From positions 1 through 36,294 of the forward strand of contig CATONV010000020.1 in NCBI GenBank assembly GCA_951801655.1: a DNA stretch of 36,294 nt, written 5' to 3'. The translations under genes were made by a program, and so were the position numbers. The notes under the pieces are model-generated. The model saw only the letters and a program-made list of their open reading frames with translations, was not told where the DNA came from and did no database searches. This stretch comes from an uncultured Oscillospiraceae bacterium (GTDB lineage: Bacteria; Bacillota; Clostridia; Oscillospirales; Oscillospiraceae). Position 1 is the first letter of the stretch; the number at the start of each line of letters is the position of its first letter. Below, one piece after another: positions 18,240 through 27,124 of the stretch.

Positions 18240-18932
18240 TCAATACAGTCCGTGGTAAAGCGCGTACATGGCCCGAAAAAGTCTGCGCTCCGTCTCCTCG
18301 TCCGGCGCCAGAAAGCGGCAGCCATATTCAAAGTAGCCGGGCTTACGGTCGTTAATACGCAGGATCTGGCAGTTCAGGCAAATATCTCCCAGCTCCAGCA
18401 GCCGGTTTACCCGCAGGAGAAGCCGGTCTCCCACATCCCGGCGGGACTGGGAACCGATGCAGACGCCCCCCATGCCCATATTTTTGACCTGACACTGCTC
18501 CTCTGGAACGCCGGGCCGGTCAACCACGGTAAAGCTACCCTCCAGGTCGGTCTCCACCCGGACATTGGCCCGGTGCTCCTCCTCGCGGTCCACCAGGGCC
18601 AGATGCTCCGCCTGCCACAGCTTGTTGGCGCCCATGCGGATGGTGCCCTCCAGCATGACCGCCCGATTTTCCCGACTGCTGTAACCCCGCAGGGACACCT
18701 GCAGCGGCTCATCCAGCTGAGTCATCAGACTGCCGCCCGCCCCCGGCTCCAGCTGAGCCCGGTCGCCCCGCAGCTCCAGCAGCTTGGCCACCAAAAAGAC
18801 CCTGCCGTCTCCGCTGGTTACCTCCACGCGCATCCCGGAGTACACCTCCAGATCCTCCCGCATGGCGCGCCTGTGGGATTCCTCCGCCCGCCTCTCCCTC
18901 GGGCTTTTGCGAAAAGCATCAAACAGTCCCAT
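18240..18932 (-). CDS. PilZ-domain cyclic-di-GMP binding protein
   Basis: A 230-residue protein with AAGGAGGG before ATG 18932. The N-terminal ~110 residues resemble a YcgR-N-like beta domain and the C-terminal half is PilZ. The ligand motif RxxxR is RANVR (121-125). The second motif, normally (D/N)xSxxG, is NMGMGG (151-156), so serine is replaced by glycine. No secretion signal is seen. It begins 18 bases after the diguanylate cyclase stop, so one operon makes and senses the same messenger. In Firmicutes such proteins often slow flagella or control surface polymers; the target here is unknown. Confidence 0.85.
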   Translation of the reverse strand: MGLFDAFRKSPRERRAEESHRRAMREDLEVYSGMRVEVTSGDGRVFLVAKLLELRGDRAQLEPGAGGSLMTQLDEPLQVSLRGYSSRENRAVMLEGTIRMGANKLWQAEHLALVDREEEHRANVRVETDLEGSFTVVDRPGVPEEQCQVKNMGMGGVCIGSQSRRDVGDRLLLRVNRLLELGDICLNCQILRINDRKPGYFEYGCRFLAPDEETERRLFRAMYALYHGLY

Positions 18933-18950
18933 TTTTCTCCCTCCTTGTCC

Positions 18951-19874
18951 TCAGTCCTTCAGCTCCTCCATTTTTGACGTGGACCACACCACCTGGTTGC
19001 GCCCAAACCGCTTTGCGTCATACAGCATGGTGTCCGCCACCTTCAAATATGTATCATAGCAGTCGCCTCTCTCGGGCACCACAGTCACCCCGCCAATGCT
19101 GACAGTAACCCACTGGGCTGCTTCTGGAGTGTGGGGGATGTGCAGGTCCTCCACCGCCTGACGGATTTTTCTCAGCTGGTCCGAGGCCGCCTTGGCGTTA
19201 CTGCCCATAACAATGGCCACGAACTCCTCCCCGCCGTAGCGGGCAAAAAAGTCGGTGCTCCTGCGCAGAAAACTGTTGGCCGTCTGGGCTACGGCGCAGA
19301 TTACCTTGTCTCCGGCGGGATGGCCGAAGGTGTCGTTATAAATTTTGAACCGGTCGATGTCAAACATACAAAGCGAGATTGGCTGTTTAAAGCGAATCGC
19401 CTCCTGCCATTTGTTCAAGCAGCTGATATCGTAGCTGCGCCGGTTGGGCACGCCGGTCATGGGATCCACCATGGACTGGCGCTCCACCTGGGTACGGTAG
19501 CGGTAGAGTTTGACATGCGTCTTTACCCGGGCCCGGACGATAGGGGGATGGTAGGGCTTGGTAATATAGTCCACGGCCCCAAGGACCAGCCCCCTCTCTT
19601 CATACTCTGTGTCCCGCAGGCTGGTGATGAGGATAACCGGAATACGCTTGGTGACAACCTCTTCCTGCATCCGCTGCAACAGCTCAAAGCCGTCCATCCC
19701 GGGCATAATTACGTCCAGCAGGACCAGGGAAAAGTCTCCCACTCTAACCTGGTGGAGGCCCTCCTCGGCGGTGTGTTCCACGGTAATGTCGTAGTCCCCC
19801 TCCAGGATACTCTTCAGCATATTCGCCTGGACCGAGCTGTCGTCAATAATCAAAACCCTTTCCCGCTTTTCCAT
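18951..19874 (-). CDS. Response-regulator diguanylate cyclase (REC-GGDEF)
   Basis: A 307-residue PleD/WspR-like protein. AAGGAG-type sites precede ATG 19874. The receiver domain (1-120) has the acidic pocket Asp11/Asp12, phospho-acceptor Asp54 in VLLDVIMPGMDG, Thr84 and Lys106. The GGDEF domain (~130-295) has active-site GGEEF (214-218) and an inhibitory I-site RxxD (Arg205-Asp208) exactly five residues upstream, so product feedback is expected. Phosphorylation should drive dimerisation and synthesis of cyclic-di-GMP from two GTP. No partner histidine kinase is encoded in this window. The PilZ gene follows in the same operon. Confidence 0.93.
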   Translation of the reverse strand: MEKRERVLIIDDSSVQANMLKSILEGDYDITVEHTAEEGLHQVRVGDFSLVLLDVIMPGMDGFELLQRMQEEVVTKRIPVILITSLRDTEYEERGLVLGAVDYITKPYHPPIVRARVKTHVKLYRYRTQVERQSMVDPMTGVPNRRSYDISCLNKWQEAIRFKQPISLCMFDIDRFKIYNDTFGHPAGDKVICAVAQTANSFLRRSTDFFARYGGEEFVAIVMGSNAKAASDQLRKIRQAVEDLHIPHTPEAAQWVTVSIGGVTVVPERGDCYDTYLKVADTMLYDAKRFGRNQVVWSTSKMEELKD

Positions 19875-20070: not shown

Positions 20071-21348
20071 TCAGGCGATTACATGTTCACAAAATCCCCG
20101 GAGAATCACCGCCGCCTGTGCCCGGGTGGCGGTGCCGGCAGGGGTCAGGGTATCGGCGCTGGTGCCGTTGATCAGTCCTTCGGCGCAGGCCCAGGACATG
20201 GCCTCCCGGGCATAGGCGCTGATCTGTCTCGCGTCGCTATAGCCCGACAGATCCGCGCTGGCGCTCACGTCTTTTCCATTCAGCCGGGCATAGCCCCGGA
20301 GAATGACCGCCAGCTGTTCCCGGGTAATGGGGTCATTGGGACCAAATCGACCGTCTCCATAGCCGCTGACTACCCCGTTGGCGGCCGCCCAGGCCACCGC
20401 CCGGGCGTAATACTGGCCATCCGCCACGTCCTTAAAATCGGAGGAGCCCACATCTGGGGAACCGGACAGCCGGTGCAGAATGGTGACAATCATCCCCCGG
20501 CTGGTGGACTGGTCGGGACTGAAGGCGTCGGAGGCGGTGCCTGACATGAGGCCCTTCTCGTAGACATAGGCCACCGCGTCGTGGAACCAGACCCCCTCTT
20601 TCACATCTCGGAAGGGAAGAGACGCCTCAAATACTCCCCGCACTTCCACCTCGTCCCCGGGCATGGCAAAGACAAAGGTCCCGCCGCCCCGGTCGTTGAG
20701 CTGAAGCCGGCGCCCGCTACTCTGCGCGATGAGTTCAGTCAGGCGAAAGCCGCTGTCTGGGCGGACCGTCACCGTGACGTTCTCCCCCCACCGGGCGCTG
20801 GTCGGACGCACGGAAATCGTGCCGTGCCCCGTACTGGAGGTGTAGATGGAGTAGTTTCTACCGCCCGATTCGCCACCTGATCCGCCACTCGATCCGCCGC
20901 TGTTTTCAAAGTCGCTTCGCACCGGGATAACCTGCTCCGCCCCACCCGACTCCAGCCCCCGGTCCAGAATGGTCAGCCGGGCGGTGTCAGGGGCGGTGCA
21001 GTCGTCCCCAAGGGCCAGAGTGCCCAGAGTCGCCGTGCCGTTCTGGTTGAGACTGCGCAGGGAGTCGAGGTAGAGGGTAATTCTGGTTCGGCCGTTCTCC
21101 TCCTCCACCCGACAGAAGCTGTACTGCCCGTAGGAGGCGTCCGAGGCGAAGGCGGCCCAGGGATAACTGCCGTTGAGGGTAAGCTCCAGCTGAACGCTGT
21201 TGACCTCACGGCTGCCCAAATTCTGAAGGGTGAGTCGGACATTATCCGTCCCCTGCATCTGGAGGGTAAGCCCGCCCGCCGCCCGGGCCGGGCAGACCAA
21301 TGTCAGTGTCAGCAGCAGCGCGGTCCATACTTGTACAAGCTTTTTCAT
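20071..21348 (-). CDS. SLH-anchored surface protein with cohesin-like N-terminus
   Basis: A 425-residue secreted protein. The signal peptide ends near Ala23-Ala24. Residues ~25-145 are a beta-rich domain (VRLTLQNLGSREVNSVQLEL ... NGTATLGTLALG) whose layout resembles a cohesin-like fold; this is inference. A Gly/Ser linker (149-163) and a bacterial B-repeat-like domain (~165-240) follow. Three SLH repeats close the chain: FRDVKEGVWFHDAVAYVYEK (~246), FKDVADGQYYARAVAWAAAN (~305) and YSDARQISAYAREAMSWACA (~370). SLH domains bind pyruvylated wall polymer and fix the protein to the surface. ATG 21348 lies two bases after the M60 stop, and its ribosome site GGAGGG is inside the M60 gene, so both are made together. 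Confidence 0.85.
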   Translation of the reverse strand: MKKLVQVWTALLLTLTLVCPARAAGGLTLQMQGTDNVRLTLQNLGSREVNSVQLELTLNGSYPWAAFASDASYGQYSFCRVEEENGRTRITLYLDSLRSLNQNGTATLGTLALGDDCTAPDTARLTILDRGLESGGAEQVIPVRSDFENSGGSSGGSGGESGGRNYSIYTSSTGHGTISVRPTSARWGENVTVTVRPDSGFRLTELIAQSSGRRLQLNDRGGGTFVFAMPGDEVEVRGVFEASLPFRDVKEGVWFHDAVAYVYEKGLMSGTASDAFSPDQSTSRGMIVTILHRLSGSPDVGSSDFKDVADGQYYARAVAWAAANGVVSGYGDGRFGPNDPITREQLAVILRGYARLNGKDVSASADLSGYSDARQISAYAREAMSWACAEGLINGTSADTLTPAGTATRAQAAVILRGFCEHVIA

Positions 21349-21350
21349 TC

Positions 21351-24300
21351 TCAGCCCTCCAGCACAATGGTGGGCAGATCAGCTCCGCCCGGGGTGTCCG
21401 TCCACATTGTCTCCGCCGTCACCCGCTGGGACTCCGGGGCGTTGGGCAGATCGGTGCGGGAGAGAACCGCCCGCATCTGGCTAGGCAGAAGGTTCACCCC
21501 GTCGCAGTGGCTGGCGTCCGTCCCCTGAAGCTCTGCCTCCCGCTGGATGTTGGGGACGAAGAGGAACAGTCCGTCGCTGATGTCGCTCACCACGCCGTCC
21601 TGGGGCACCTCCGCCAGCAGCAGGCTGTAGCCGTCTAAATACCGGCGATCCGGTTCCATCTCCTCACCCTCCGCCGTTGTTTGGGTGAACAGGCCCTCTA
21701 GCTTTACGGTGAGGAAGCCGGGGTTGCCCCGGTAGGTGCCAACGATTACCAGCGTCCCCTGGGAGATGACGTCGTCCGCGCCGTCGCCATAGCGGTAATC
21801 GTCTCTCAGACGGCCCACTCCGCCCCCCTCCAGGAAGGCCACGTCATCCCCGGCGTAGCTGATCAGCTGAATGTCGGTGACGGTCTCCGGAATGCCGGTG
21901 ACGGTGACAGTCTTGGCGTCATAGGTCCAAATACGGGTGTCGTCGGCCGCCGCGCCGGGCTTCTGGAAGTAGATCAGGCAGCTTCCTTCCTGACTGTTGA
22001 AGCTGCCGGAACGGGCAATGACGGTCTTTCCGCCGCCATCCGTCACGGTGACGGTAATGTCTCCGGAGGCGGGGGCCCCCGCAATCTTCAAGCCGGAGAC
22101 GGCAGTCTCCTCCTTCATGGCGAAGGTGACCGCAGCGTCGCCCCTCTTCAGGTCGTAGGCGTCAGCCGGAACAGTTTTGTCATAGGCCACACGCAGCTCC
22201 GGGGCCGAGTCCTCCGCGAAGCAATTCCCCAGGGTGTCATAAGCCCGGACGCTGTAGGTATAGGTCCGGTGGTTGGCCGAACCAATGGTGTCCGTGTAGG
22301 TCCCCTCAGCGGTAAAGCCGATGGAAACTCCGTTGCGGAGAATCTCATAGCCCTGAAGCTTCCCCTGGCTGAGGCTGGAGCTCAGCGTCAGATCGATCCT
22401 GCTGTCTCCCGTCTTGGACGCCGCAACAGACACACTCCCCTTTCCATCCGGCAGCCCGGCCAGCCGGTCCCGGCGGCTCTGATCGCTGAGATACCACACG
22501 GCGCGCTTCTCCTTCTCATAGCGGGCCAGCACCTCCTTGGTCGAATCGCTGAGGGACATGCCCCAGCGGGTAAAGAACTCTGTCAGGTTCCTCTGCGTCA
22601 CCCCGGCGGCTGTGAGGGCCACCTTGTCGTCATAAGACTCGGCTCCGGCGGTGTAGGTGCCCTTCTTCCAGTCCCGGAAGAACTGGTTGTAGAACCACAT
22701 GGGGCCGCGGTTCTCGCCCTTTGCCCCGTCATAGGCCAGGTGGAGCTGCCAGTACATGCCCAGCTGCACAAAGACATTATTGGATGCGCCAGGCCACTTC
22801 TGGGCAGTCTTAGTGAAGATAGCGGGATATTTGCTTTCCAGCCGGGAGGGCAGGGTATTGTTGTTCCCGTCGAAGGTCTGGACCATCAGGGAGTAGATAT
22901 TGTTGGTAATCTCGGCCCGGCCCAGCTTGTCCATGTTGTGGCCGATCTCGTGGGCAATGCCCCAGCCAAACAGCTGGTTGACCTGGGCGTCCTCTCCCAG
23001 CGCAGAAACGGGCTTGCCGCTGACCATACCGGAACAGGATTTGTAGCCGATGCCGATATGGCTGCCCGCCGCGTACATGAATGCCCCGGCAAACATCTGC
23101 ATACAGCGGATATTCTGGCGGGAGGTCATGTCATTGTCTCCATAAGTCCTGTCGATGCCCTGGGTGGTTTTGCAGATGTGCATCACATCCTCCCAGGCCA
23201 GCACATTCTGGTAGAGGTTTTCCACCTTGCCCGCCTTGTCCAGGCCGTTGGCGCCCAGCACGGCGGCGGCAGGAATAGACAGCAGTACCGAGGGCATGGA
23301 GATCTCCGTCACGTTCAGGCAGTTGGTCATGGCATTGGCATCGCTGATCCCCTGGGCAGACACATAGGCGGTAATCTCTTCCACATAGGCCCCGATGCGA
23401 TTCCTGCGCTCTTCATCGCCGATGGCATACCAGTCGGACAGCTCCAGCACAGGGATATCCACCGCCCGGCGGATATGAAGCCGGACCGCCTCGGGGGCGG
23501 AGCCGCCGTAGACAGCGTACAGGCTGCCGCCCCGCCCGGTGTTCTCGCTGCCGATCTTGGGGATGGTCAGCACATTTCTGCCATTGACCAGCGTCCCCGC
23601 CTTGGCCTGCCATGCGGAGGCCTCCGCGTTGAACTGGGTGGCGTACACTGTCACCGTCTCCCCCTCTGGGATACCGGCGGCGTAAATGGTAATCTTCTCT
23701 CCCGCCTTCGCGGCCACGCCCAGGGGCTGGAGCTCACTGCCCCCCTGGCTGTATTTCTTGCTGTCGACGGCGCTGCTCCGGGACTGAATCCCCTCCAGCA
23801 CCACGCCGCTGGTCGACTTGTTCTCCAACAGCTCCCGGGCCAGGGCCAACTCGTCGGCCAGGACCTCCGGATACAGGTAATAGTTGCGCTCCTCGCTGTT
23901 CAGCCGGGCCGTCAGGGCGTCGATCTGCTCCTGATTCACGCCGGAAACCAGTCTGGTGTGCAGGCCGTCGGCGAAGAGGGCGTCAATGTTGGCGGGCAGG
24001 CTGCGGGCCGGGTCATACTCCATGAACATCAGCTCAGAGAGACTGACCTGATAGTAGTCCCGCTGTTCCACAGCAATGCTGATTTTGGTCACACCAGTCA
24101 CCGGTCCGAAGGGCAGAACCGCAAACCGGCTCTCGGGAATATTGGAGCGGTTCGGAATCTCCGGCCAGCTCCAAACCTCCTCGTTTGAACCTCCGCCATT
24201 GTCAATTCCGCCGGTCAGCAGATGGCCCTCGCCGTTCTCCTCGCCGCTGTACCATACCCGGACGCTGTAAGCCCGCAGATAGGAGGGGAAATCCCCGTCC

Positions 24301-26237
24301 ATCCTGGGCGCCCAGAAGGCCGTGGACAGGTCCACCGGCTGCGTGAAGGCAACAATCACATGCTCGTTTCGCGTCGCGGTGCTGCTGGCCGTCCAGTGGG
24401 TTCGGAAATCCCCGTCCATCATATTCCAGGGCGTAAAGGGCGCGTCGGCGGTGTAGGCGCGGGAATCGTAGTTGCCGGCATCGGCCAGGCGGATATCCGC
24501 AATATACGAGCTGTCCAGAATTCCCTGGGTGGGAATCCCCGCCGGACGGCTGTAGTCGGTGGCCTTGGGCGTGCCCGCGGCGATGCGGGAGGGGCCGCTT
24601 TGGCCCGCGTCGTTGCCCGCCACCACATAGAGGTAATAGGTTGTACCGTTGGTCAGGCCGCCGACGGTCATGGCGGGGGCGGTTACCCGTCCCCCGGCCT
24701 GCTGATAGGAGGAGACAGGCGCACCCGCCTGGTCGGTGCAGTATACCTCGTACCATGTGGCGTTCTCCGCCGCCTTCCAGGACAGCTTCAGCTGCCCGTC
24801 CAACTCCGCCACGCTCACCATATCCGGAGCAGCAGGCGACTTGGCGGGCATAGGCATGGCCTCCACCGGCGTGCAGGCCTTCCCCTGCCAGCTGCCGTCC
24901 ACCGGAGTGACAGTGAAGCAGTAGGTCTTCAGGTTATCCAGCCCGGTAATCCGGGCCTGGGCCACATCCGTGTTCAGCCGCAGGCGGGTACTCTCCAGCC
25001 CGGACTGCCAGTACTCCACCCGGTATCCGGACACGTTGGGCAGCTCGCTCCAGGTCAGGTCTACCTGCCCGTCCCCGGCAGCGGCAGACAGTTTTTTCAC
25101 CTGACTGTTGGGCTCTGTCAGCTCCTCAGGGACAATATCCCGGAGAAACCGGATGGATTCCAGGGCGGCGTACTCACCGCCCGCCGTCTTGGTCACAGTA
25201 ATGGTGATTTTCTTCACCGCTACCCGTTTGCCCAGAGAGATGGTAATCACATTGCTCCCCGGCGTACGGGTAATGGCGTGAATGTCCGCGTACATGGCTG
25301 TATCCGAGACAAAGGGCACGGACATCACGCCGGTGTGCCCCTCCTCCTCGTACTCCACCTGGGCCGTTCCCGCCTGAACAGCGCCGACGGCGCTGTCAGG
25401 GGTGGCCACCTGGATCTCTTGGGCCTCTACCGGGGCGGACAGGGTAATGGGGATCACAATGTCCCCGGCGTTGCGGAAGCGGACATAGCCCTCCCCCCGC
25501 AGCAGGGACTCCACATCGCCCTCCGCTGCCGTGCCGGCTGCATTCATCTCCTGCTGTGTGCGGTCGGCATCCATCCGGACATCTGTGCAGGCGGTGTCCA
25601 GCACTGTGGCCTGGCCCACGGGGGTGTTGGCATTGTGATTGACATAGGCCAGATCGATGATATCGATTTTGCCGTCCCCGTTCAGGTCAAACCGATCCAG
25701 ATCGGCCCGCCCGGTACTGCCCAGAGAGGCAGTCAGGGCGTCCCGGTCCCGGACATCCACCCGGCCGTTTCCGTCCAGGTCGCCCAGGGCAAAGGTGCCG
25801 TCTCCTGTGCCCACCTCAATGTATTGGTCATAATTTTGGAGTGTAAAGGGAACCTCGCAATCGGTATAGCCTGTGCCGGCAAAGCGCAGGGTATAGTCCC
25901 CCCGGGGCAGTCCCTCCACCGTCAGGTCCAGGGCTCCGGGCGTCGCGCTGCCGATGAGGTCGCCGCCCAGCCGGTCCCGCAGCGTCACCCGGGCAAAACA
26001 GCCGGACAGCTGCTGTTCTCTCTCCTGCGTCAGGGAGATTTCCCCCAGAGAACTGCGCCCCTGGAGCAGCTCCGCCCGAACATCTCTCTCCCGCAGTTCA
26101 GCCAGCTCCTGGCTGTAGTCCAAACGCAGGGTAGCCTCCAGCCTCCCCGCGCCCCTTTCCTCTGTGGCCCGGACCGGGCCAACCATGGACAGCACCATGG
26201 ACGCCGTCAGCAGGACGGCAGAAATTCGTCTTTTCAT
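21351..26237 (-). CDS. Secreted M60-type metallopeptidase with dockerin-like repeats
   Basis: A 1628-residue exoprotein. ATG 26237 opens a signal peptide (cut near Ala24) and has GGAGAGAAGG upstream. Domains in order: a beta domain (~30-145); a paired EF-hand dockerin-like segment (151-202) with DLDGNGRVDVRD and DLNGDGKIDIID; two fibronectin type III domains (~378-470, ~470-560); an F5/8 type C/CBM32-like domain (~572-740); and an M60/enhancin-like peptidase (~840-1190). The catalytic motif is HEIGH (1096-1100) with a third zinc ligand Glu1109, i.e. HExxH-x8-E. Another FN3 (~1260-1350) and unknown beta domains follow. M60 enzymes are known to cleave mucin-type glycoproteins. The downstream SLH protein may anchor it. 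Confidence 0.9.
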   Translation of the reverse strand: MKRRISAVLLTASMVLSMVGPVRATEERGAGRLEATLRLDYSQELAELRERDVRAELLQGRSSLGEISLTQEREQQLSGCFARVTLRDRLGGDLIGSATPGALDLTVEGLPRGDYTLRFAGTGYTDCEVPFTLQNYDQYIEVGTGDGTFALGDLDGNGRVDVRDRDALTASLGSTGRADLDRFDLNGDGKIDIIDLAYVNHNANTPVGQATVLDTACTDVRMDADRTQQEMNAAGTAAEGDVESLLRGEGYVRFRNAGDIVIPITLSAPVEAQEIQVATPDSAVGAVQAGTAQVEYEEEGHTGVMSVPFVSDTAMYADIHAITRTPGSNVITISLGKRVAVKKITITVTKTAGGEYAALESIRFLRDIVPEELTEPNSQVKKLSAAAGDGQVDLTWSELPNVSGYRVEYWQSGLESTRLRLNTDVAQARITGLDNLKTYCFTVTPVDGSWQGKACTPVEAMPMPAKSPAAPDMVSVAELDGQLKLSWKAAENATWYEVYCTDQAGAPVSSYQQAGGRVTAPAMTVGGLTNGTTYYLYVVAGNDAGQSGPSRIAAGTPKATDYSRPAGIPTQGILDSSYIADIRLADAGNYDSRAYTADAPFTPWNMMDGDFRTHWTASSTATRNEHVIVAFTQPVDLSTAFWAPRMDGDFPSYLRAYSVRVWYSGEENGEGHLLTGGIDNGGGSNEEVWSWPEIPNRSNIPESRFAVLPFGPVTGVTKISIAVEQRDYYQVSLSELMFMEYDPARSLPANIDALFADGLHTRLVSGVNQEQIDALTARLNSEERNYYLYPEVLADELALARELLENKSTSGVVLEGIQSRSSAVDSKKYSQGGSELQPLGVAAKAGEKITIYAAGIPEGETVTVYATQFNAEASAWQAKAGTLVNGRNVLTIPKIGSENTGRGGSLYAVYGGSAPEAVRLHIRRAVDIPVLELSDWYAIGDEERRNRIGAYVEEITAYVSAQGISDANAMTNCLNVTEISMPSVLLSIPAAAVLGANGLDKAGKVENLYQNVLAWEDVMHICKTTQGIDRTYGDNDMTSRQNIRCMQMFAGAFMYAAGSHIGIGYKSCSGMVSGKPVSALGEDAQVNQLFGWGIAHEIGHNMDKLGRAEITNNIYSLMVQTFDGNNNTLPSRLESKYPAIFTKTAQKWPGASNNVFVQLGMYWQLHLAYDGAKGENRGPMWFYNQFFRDWKKGTYTAGAESYDDKVALTAAGVTQRNLTEFFTRWGMSLSDSTKEVLARYEKEKRAVWYLSDQSRRDRLAGLPDGKGSVSVAASKTGDSRIDLTLSSSLSQGKLQGYEILRNGVSIGFTAEGTYTDTIGSANHRTYTYSVRAYDTLGNCFAEDSAPELRVAYDKTVPADAYDLKRGDAAVTFAMKEETAVSGLKIAGAPASGDITVTVTDGGGKTVIARSGSFNSQEGSCLIYFQKPGAAADDTRIWTYDAKTVTVTGIPETVTDIQLISYAGDDVAFLEGGGVGRLRDDYRYGDGADDVISQGTLVIVGTYRGNPGFLTVKLEGLFTQTTAEGEEMEPDRRYLDGYSLLLAEVPQDGVVSDISDGLFLFVPNIQREAELQGTDASHCDGVNLLPSQMRAVLSRTDLPNAPESQRVTAETMWTDTPGGADLPTIVLEG

Positions 26238-26413: not shown

Positions 26414-27019
26414 TCACTCCCAGGTTTCTGCCCGGTATCGGAAGGACGACAGGGGCATCCCGCACTCCTTGGCCGCCGCCGTGCCGGTGATGACCCCCGC
26501 CTTCCACCGCTGATAGGCGCTGAAGTAGTTGGCGGGGAGAGGGGCGGGCGGCCTGCCGAACCGCACCCCCCGGAGCTTGGCCGCCGCGATGCCCTCCGCC
26601 TGACGCTGATGGATATTGCTCCTTTCATTTTCAGCTACGAACGAGAGTACCTGCAAGACAATATCACTCAGAAAGGTGCCCATCAGGTCTTTGCCCCGCC
26701 GGGTATCCAGAAGGGGCATGTCCAGCACCACAATATCGATCCCCTTTTCCTTGGTCAGAACCCGCCACTGCTCCAGAATTTCCTCGTAGTTGCGTCCCAG
26801 GCGATCGATGCTCTTGATGTAGAGCAGGTCGTCCTGCTTGAACTTTCTGACCATCTTCAGATACTGCGGCCGCTGGAAGTCTTTCCCGGACTGCTTATCC
26901 ATGTAAATATTTTCCTCCGGAACTGCCAGACCCTGCATTGCAATCCGCTGACGGTCTTCATTCTGCTCCCGGGTACTAACCCGGATGTACCCGTAACTTA
27001 CGCTTTCGATGTTTACCAC
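26414..27019 (-). CDS. Small serine recombinase (resolvase/invertase family)
   Basis: About 201 residues. The catalytic domain is complete: SYGYIRVSTREQNEDRQ holds the nucleophile serine (Ser15 by this start), and KSIDRLGRNYEEI and the VLSFVAENERSNIHQRQAEG helix follow. The C-terminus has KLRGVRFGRPPAPLP and a short DNA-binding helix-turn-helix (GTAAAKECGMPLSSFRYRAE). The start is uncertain: GTG 27019 is the nearest usual codon but overlaps the GGAGGTG ribosome-like site, and TTG 27025 or TTG 27103 are alternatives. Such proteins resolve or invert DNA at a nearby site; no clear paired recombination sites or transposase are seen. It may be a stand-alone chromosomal recombinase. Confidence 0.85.
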   Translation of the reverse strand: MVNIESVSYGYIRVSTREQNEDRQRIAMQGLAVPEENIYMDKQSGKDFQRPQYLKMVRKFKQDDLLYIKSIDRLGRNYEEILEQWRVLTKEKGIDIVVLDMPLLDTRRGKDLMGTFLSDIVLQVLSFVAENERSNIHQRQAEGIAAAKLRGVRFGRPPAPLPANYFSAYQRWKAGVITGTAAAKECGMPLSSFRYRAETWE

Positions 27020-27035
27020 CTCCAAATGACATTTT

Positions 27036-27075
27036 AAGCGGACTTTTCCCTGGAAGGGAAGTCCGCTTTTATCTT
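27036..27075 (+). terminator. Hairpin with T-rich tail in the resolvase leader
   Basis: Arms AAGCGGACTT (27036-27045) and AAGTCCGCTT (27059-27068) plus three inner pairs, followed on the plus strand by TTTTATCTTTTC. It has terminator form in the plus direction, although no plus gene precedes it, and lies just upstream of the recombinase start on the minus strand. It may instead be a leader hairpin or a recombination-site arm. Confidence 0.55.
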
Positions 27076-27124
27076 TTCTGCAATTTTTCCGAGGAGGTAG
27101 CAAAATAGAAATCCCGCAAACGCA

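Follow-up and report, generated by a model that had tools for sequence, protein, structure and literature searches.

What could a dockerin-bearing peptidase dock onto in a genome in which Pfam models find no cohesin? The question is raised by a stretch of 36,294 nucleotides (hereafter the window, meaning the whole stretch of DNA that was analysed) from an uncultured Oscillospiraceae bacterium (assembly GCA_951801655.1, contig CATONV010000020.1), in which the gene of an M60 peptidase (1628 aa, 21351..26237) is followed by that of an SLH anchor protein (425 aa, 20071..21348), both on the minus strand, as are all window features given below, and each with a signal peptide recognised by eye. An earlier sequence-only reading of this DNA had given the coordinates, strand and order of the two genes as we find them, and its two-base gap corresponds to the 2 nt between the peptidase stop codon and the ATG of the SLH gene; a ribosome-binding-like site (GGAGGG, 21355..21360) lies within the last bases of the peptidase gene. 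It had also seen no wall anchor in the peptidase, and indeed there is no SLH match in its Pfam listing, and neither a sortase motif nor a C-terminal membrane segment is visible in its sequence. We consider it probable that the two proteins form a private cohesin-dockerin tether, which would hold one mucinase on the wall. Binding, calcium dependence and a mucin substrate are what we infer; the order of the genes, their domains and predicted folds, the conservation of the pair and the replacement of the anchor are what we observed.

The candidate socket is the N-terminal domain of the SLH protein (residues 26-146, 20911..21273), proposed before as a possible divergent cohesin. The high-confidence structure prediction is a nine-strand sandwich, as in the nine-strand jelly-roll of cohesins, and a Foldseek search with this model placed cohesins at ranks 1-5, the closest by fold being 2jh2, 2w1n and 2vo8 from Clostridium perfringens; the domain is thus predicted to fold as the sequence-only reading had supposed. 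Residues 25-145 had no match in Pfam at E<=1 and none in NCBIfam; phmmer with the SLH protein against PDB sequences returned mostly SLH matches and none for this domain, nor did a 20-sequence profile of the domain match any PDB sequence. A profile-profile comparison of 20 against 6 sequences gave no cohesin match, and a cohesin profile built from 106 domain hits matched no cohesin-like open reading frame at E<0.01. When 65 sequences were compared with 75 of the PF00963 cohesins by hhalign, the alignment was colinear but weak (P 0.001-0.0004); on match columns P was 0.004, none of 100 column shuffles reached that score, and the score of 21.7 over 68 columns compares with 10.6-18.2 over 10-14 columns each for four control domains. 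Judged by its sequence and predicted fold, the domain appears to belong to a family missed by standard annotation.

Cohesins bind dockerins through the sheet formed by strands 8-3-6-5. Three positions located on strands 3 and 6 were compared in an alignment of 64 sequences, one of them from the window: at that of Gln53, 58 sequences have Gln and 6 have Glu, at that of Thr91, 52 have Thr, and at that of Tyr93, 63 have Tyr. Of the strand residues judged to face outward, the highest conservation is that of Gln53 and Tyr93, a judgement made from residue alternation rather than coordinates and leaving out Phe67 (54 of 64).

The same protein continues with a divergent InlB B-repeat (residues 166-242, 20623..20853; PF18998, E 8.5e-8), which had gone unmentioned before, and ends in three SLH repeats serving as cell-wall anchor (20110..20616), whose earlier recognition is borne out by Pfam (E 9.6e-36). 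The B-repeat is perhaps a spacer, and it is absent from the matches of some relatives' SLH partners; the partner encoded at L060:7729-10365 (+) has six such repeats instead of one, as if its socket stood further from the wall. The source genome has one PF04230 pyruvyl-transferase gene, a family that includes the wall-polymer pyruvyl transferase CsaB but is wider than it, and which is also matched in 8 of 14 control genomes.

The putative plug lies near the N-terminus of the peptidase. An X module (residues 26-148, 25794..26162), a beta sandwich according to AlphaFold 2 and to matches with cellulosomal X-dockerins, precedes a dockerin (residues 149-204, 25626..25793) with two calcium loops and three predicted helices. 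Dockerin_1 (PF00404) matches residues 151-201 with E 3.3e-5 and 24.4 bits, the cut-off being 22.9; acidic positions are kept in both loops, and across 58 paired loci the segment positions 7, 18, 38, 42, 46 and 49 are Asp in 56-58, while loop positions 9, 11 and 15 are variable. The two modules were modelled together with a pLDDT (predicted local distance difference test) of 93.4, and the best eight PDB matches of the model are cellulosomal X-dockerins, four of them so named in their titles, far above other folds. What had been described as a paired calcium-loop dockerin-like segment (151-202) therefore stands, as the second half of an X-dockerin bimodule.

The two genes are also found together in relatives. 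In the 64 genomes of the genus, the cohesin-like profile matches 23, once each, and Peptidase_M60 matches 24, again once each, namely the same 23 and G034, whose M60 gene runs off its contig; all 24 have a dockerin match (27 genus genomes do at E<=0.001, and G054 at 0.002). The cohesin-like gene directly follows the M60 gene in 23 of 23 cases, the peptidase gene being split over two contigs in three of them (G060, G054 and G037). Since the same order recurs in 22/22 genus pairs, with -8 to +33 nt between the two genes, it is not a matter of chance; for these spacings start codons were picked for a signal peptide, with alternatives in some pairs, and the 23rd pair (L178) stands outside the set. 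Across 400 genomes of the family there were 50 cohesin-like matches at E<=0.01, spread over 22 of 106 genera, of which 46 were strong (E<=5e-12). Outside the genus M60 lies directly upstream in all 41 strong loci, every one of which was examined, and the dockerin was seen in 38; two of the other three are truncated at a contig end, and the third (L140) shows M60 with the cohesin-like domain, but no visible dockerin, in frames that look broken. Four matches were weak (E 0.001-0.008; G322, G379, G155 and G203); G322 is a partner with another anchor, and G379 was set aside, its frame looking LysR-like.

Six named records have M60 with a dockerin, and in five (L086-L089 and L092) the profile finds the cohesin-like domain downstream, where L087 and L089 coincide with L142 and L065; in L090, a Clostridium metagenome-assembled genome, a similar domain with an LPDTGE tail can be seen by eye, the profile giving no match. 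Taken at the sequence level, these counts support the two genes as a conserved unit. A mirror-tree analysis of 58 pairs showed that distances between cohesin-like domains follow those of M60 (r 0.80), the X module (0.74), the dockerin (0.60) and the SLH repeats (0.30); the partial correlations were 0.47 for M60, 0.20 for the X module and 0.13 for the dockerin (24 of 2000 permutations as high), and the analysis offers no specific support for a contact between cohesin-like domain and dockerin.

The anchor, moreover, changes between relatives. Of the 400 family genomes, 57 have M60, and 11 of these 57 show no strong cohesin-like match; in one of the 11, G287, the locus ends at a contig edge. In G308, G322, G398, G430 and G460 the adjoining protein carries a related domain, matched with E-values between 8e-10 and 6e-5 when a small set was searched (the best reversed decoy reached 0.11), then a linker and a C-terminal tail with TG motif, membrane segment and basic residues, which replaces the SLH repeats. 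No anchor family appears for these membrane/sortase-like tails in the Pfam listing; under the LPXTG model itself one passes with 16.3 bits where 15.9 are required, another narrowly misses with 14.8, and the remaining three are unlisted. Four genomes of one genus (G185, G259, G313 and G392) encode instead a single frame of 2173-2247 residues that runs from a dockerin-like segment, below the Pfam cut-off in the two scanned, through M60 to SLH repeats. Just before these repeats a cohesin-like remnant likely persists, to judge from sequence comparison: single sequences gave at best E 0.011-0.1 in three of the fused genes, while the fourth (L216) had no useful match there (E 4-6.5), and by profile it is the best of 36 windows (P 0.0019, the next non-overlapping place having 0.025). 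The enzyme is thus kept while the type of anchor changes, as a tether would predict.

A further question is whether other dockerin genes also lie beside a socket. Genes without M60 were covered in the fetched loci only, a minority of the dockerins of the order. The seven neighbours of such genes that were scanned have cohesin matches, five above the Pfam cut-off (L064, L066, L077, L081 and L082) and two below it (L076 and L079), and SLH repeats accompany them in six, L066 being without; L081 and L082 come from a second genus of the same family, the other five loci from the window's genus. Three of the eight non-M60 dockerins scanned (L076, L077 and L082) are themselves below the cut-off or unlisted. 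The arrangement of dockerin next to socket therefore occurs where the cohesin is recognisable, and is not universal in the loci examined.

Single loci add to the variety of dockerin genes. At L080:1484-8983 (G067) a 2167-aa frame with a C-terminal dockerin precedes a protein of 285 aa that matches the cohesin profile (3e-5) and has a membrane tail with PTTGDE, and at L102:9290-15991 (+), from an uncultured Oscillospiraceae (Lapin), a 2234-aa frame has a dockerin-like segment just below cut-off, C-terminal SLH repeats and no M60 match. In two records from candidate phyla, a Pfam cohesin protein directly follows the dockerin protein, a polysaccharide deacetylase with a CBM, at L098:8723-11091 (Candidatus Saccharibacteria YM_S32_TM7_50_20), as it does a dockerin protein at L100:94-1935 (Patescibacteria).

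The source genome, 89% complete in 150 contigs, has one dockerin gene and one cohesin-like domain, with no Pfam cohesin at E<=1. With a single dockerin gene and no scaffoldin in this incomplete genome, the pair is not a cellulosome or mucinolysome. The earlier description as a minimal cellulosome-like system was overstated, and because there is one dockerin gene and no Pfam cohesin a one-enzyme surface tether is indicated rather than a multi-enzyme complex.

Four observations count against such a tether. In a second structural aligner CBM2 modules, which like other domains have the same general fold, tie with the cohesins; the four leading Foldseek matches represent only two entries; G263 (L213), with a divergent M60 and its dockerin on another gene, does not fit the pairing; and the dockerin gene of L083 has no cohesin neighbour by profile. 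The first bears on an alternative that we regard as unlikely, in which the N-terminal domain would be a module of the CBM2 or CBM3 kind gripping a glycan, the two genes being co-transcribed and their products not binding each other. The ranking of cohesins in the fold search speaks for the other side, as do the alignments of the second aligner, which cover 108-115 of 121 residues for cohesins and 95-96 for CBM2. CBM2 modules bind via tryptophans, whereas the 64-row alignment has at most two of them in any column, and a glycan-gripping module would leave the adjoining X-dockerin gene unexplained.

The dockerin might also lack a partner and serve as an internal spacer stabilised by calcium, in which case the SLH protein would be a co-expressed S-layer protein; EF-hand-like pairs can be structural, and the fused relatives retain their dockerin segment. 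This we hold to be very unlikely given how closely the bimodule matches cellulosomal X-dockerins and given that Pfam cohesins adjoin other dockerin genes; moreover, the cohesin-like domain occurs in 23 of the 24 genus genomes with M60 and in no other genome of the genus, despite 45 SLH matches on many proteins of the source genome. That the dockerin binds some other cohesin, encoded elsewhere in this genome or borne by another species, is highly improbable: the genome is incomplete and cross-species docking conceivable, but none was found by Pfam in this genome and the adjoining candidate is conserved.

Under the preferred explanation, a tether between the two neighbours, both proteins would be secreted, as their signal peptides suggest, and the SLH protein would attach to the wall via its three repeats, SLH domains being established as wall-binding. 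Its cohesin-like domain, standing off the wall, would then bind the X-dockerin of the peptidase, presumably with calcium, so that the enzyme would stay on the surface of the cell, its catalytic part pointing outward, where it may cut O-glycosylated proteins of the mucin type.

The catalytic domain (residues 977-1226, 22560..23309) matches Peptidase_M60 (PF13402) with E 5.4e-19 and 69.2 bits, the cut-off being 25.8, and its HEXXH motif reads HEIGH (1096-1100). Pfam also places fn3 domains in the protein and, below cut-off, an F5/8 (CBM32-like) match at residues 602-666. From this family and the closest solved relatives by sequence, glycopeptidases of the F5/8 and Zmp types (7jfs, E 1.2e-32; 6xsz ZmpC, E 3.6e-28), we infer a substrate among O-glycosylated, mucin-type proteins. 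The C-terminal part (residues 1340-1628, 21354-22220) is common to relatives and has no Pfam match; the fused peptidase-SLH proteins show one like it. A single in-frame stop codon breaks the M60 gene in L060 (G021) and L056 (G040), and apparent frame changes interrupt it in L074 and L151, which may reflect decay, sequencing error or recoding.

Around the pair, the peptidase gene is preceded, at a distance of about 180 bases, by a serine recombinase gene (Resolvase, E 2.1e-27; 26414-27103), and after the SLH gene come a response-regulator/GGDEF protein and a PilZ protein (18240-19874), whose sequences suggest cyclic-di-GMP signalling nearby.

We found no publication on the M60-dockerin/SLH pair, on M60 with a dockerin or on a dockerin with Lawsonibacter, most subscription journals lying outside the search; in PMC12871809 the relevant terms occur in the reference list only. 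In PMC3267712, from 2012, 415 M60-like proteins include 2 with a dockerin and 1 with SLH domains, and a figure labels its Clostridium and Bacillus members "?-anchor". The window pair is a testable answer to that label for one large group. According to PMC12997984, Pfam models find dockerins in 26,894 human-gut genomes, cohesins in 6,562 and both in 4,333; a cohesin family missed by Pfam and encoded beside the dockerin gene could account for some of this gap. On balance we favour the view that gut Bacillota have such an unrecognised family, each member beside its own dockerin enzyme, forming modular sockets on SLH, membrane/sortase-like or fused anchors and explaining part of the dockerin-only gut genomes. 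A wall-held mucinase would retain cleavage products near the cell, and one-to-one pairs could serve as orthogonal connectors.

Compared with known systems, OlpA and OlpC of Clostridium thermocellum are wall-anchored single cohesins beside a cellulosome with many dockerin enzymes, whereas the window pair has a likely single partner enzyme, from the adjacent gene, and a domain without Pfam match. The type II X-dockerin of CipA, ScaA and CipB is part of the scaffoldin, while that of the window is near the N-terminus of the enzyme itself. The M60-like/PF13402 peptidases described in PMC3267712 are of the same catalytic family and share the fn3 and F5/8 companions. By sequence, the closest solved dockerin is from C. 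perfringens (2jnk/2ozn, E 6.2e-5), whose X82 cohesin and dockerin modules are likewise non-cellulosomal; according to PMC12997984 a glycoside hydrolase domain is present as well in all five of its cohesin proteins, whereas the cohesin-like domain of the window is on a wall anchor. The same paper describes, with Pfam models, multi-enzyme mucinolysomes in Limousia, which resemble the window pair in being a cohesin-dockerin system proposed for mucin and in having dockerin peptidases; they comprise numerous dockerin enzymes, scaffoldins with multiple cohesins and a scaffoldin anchored by sortase, in contrast to the one enzyme and one socket encoded here.

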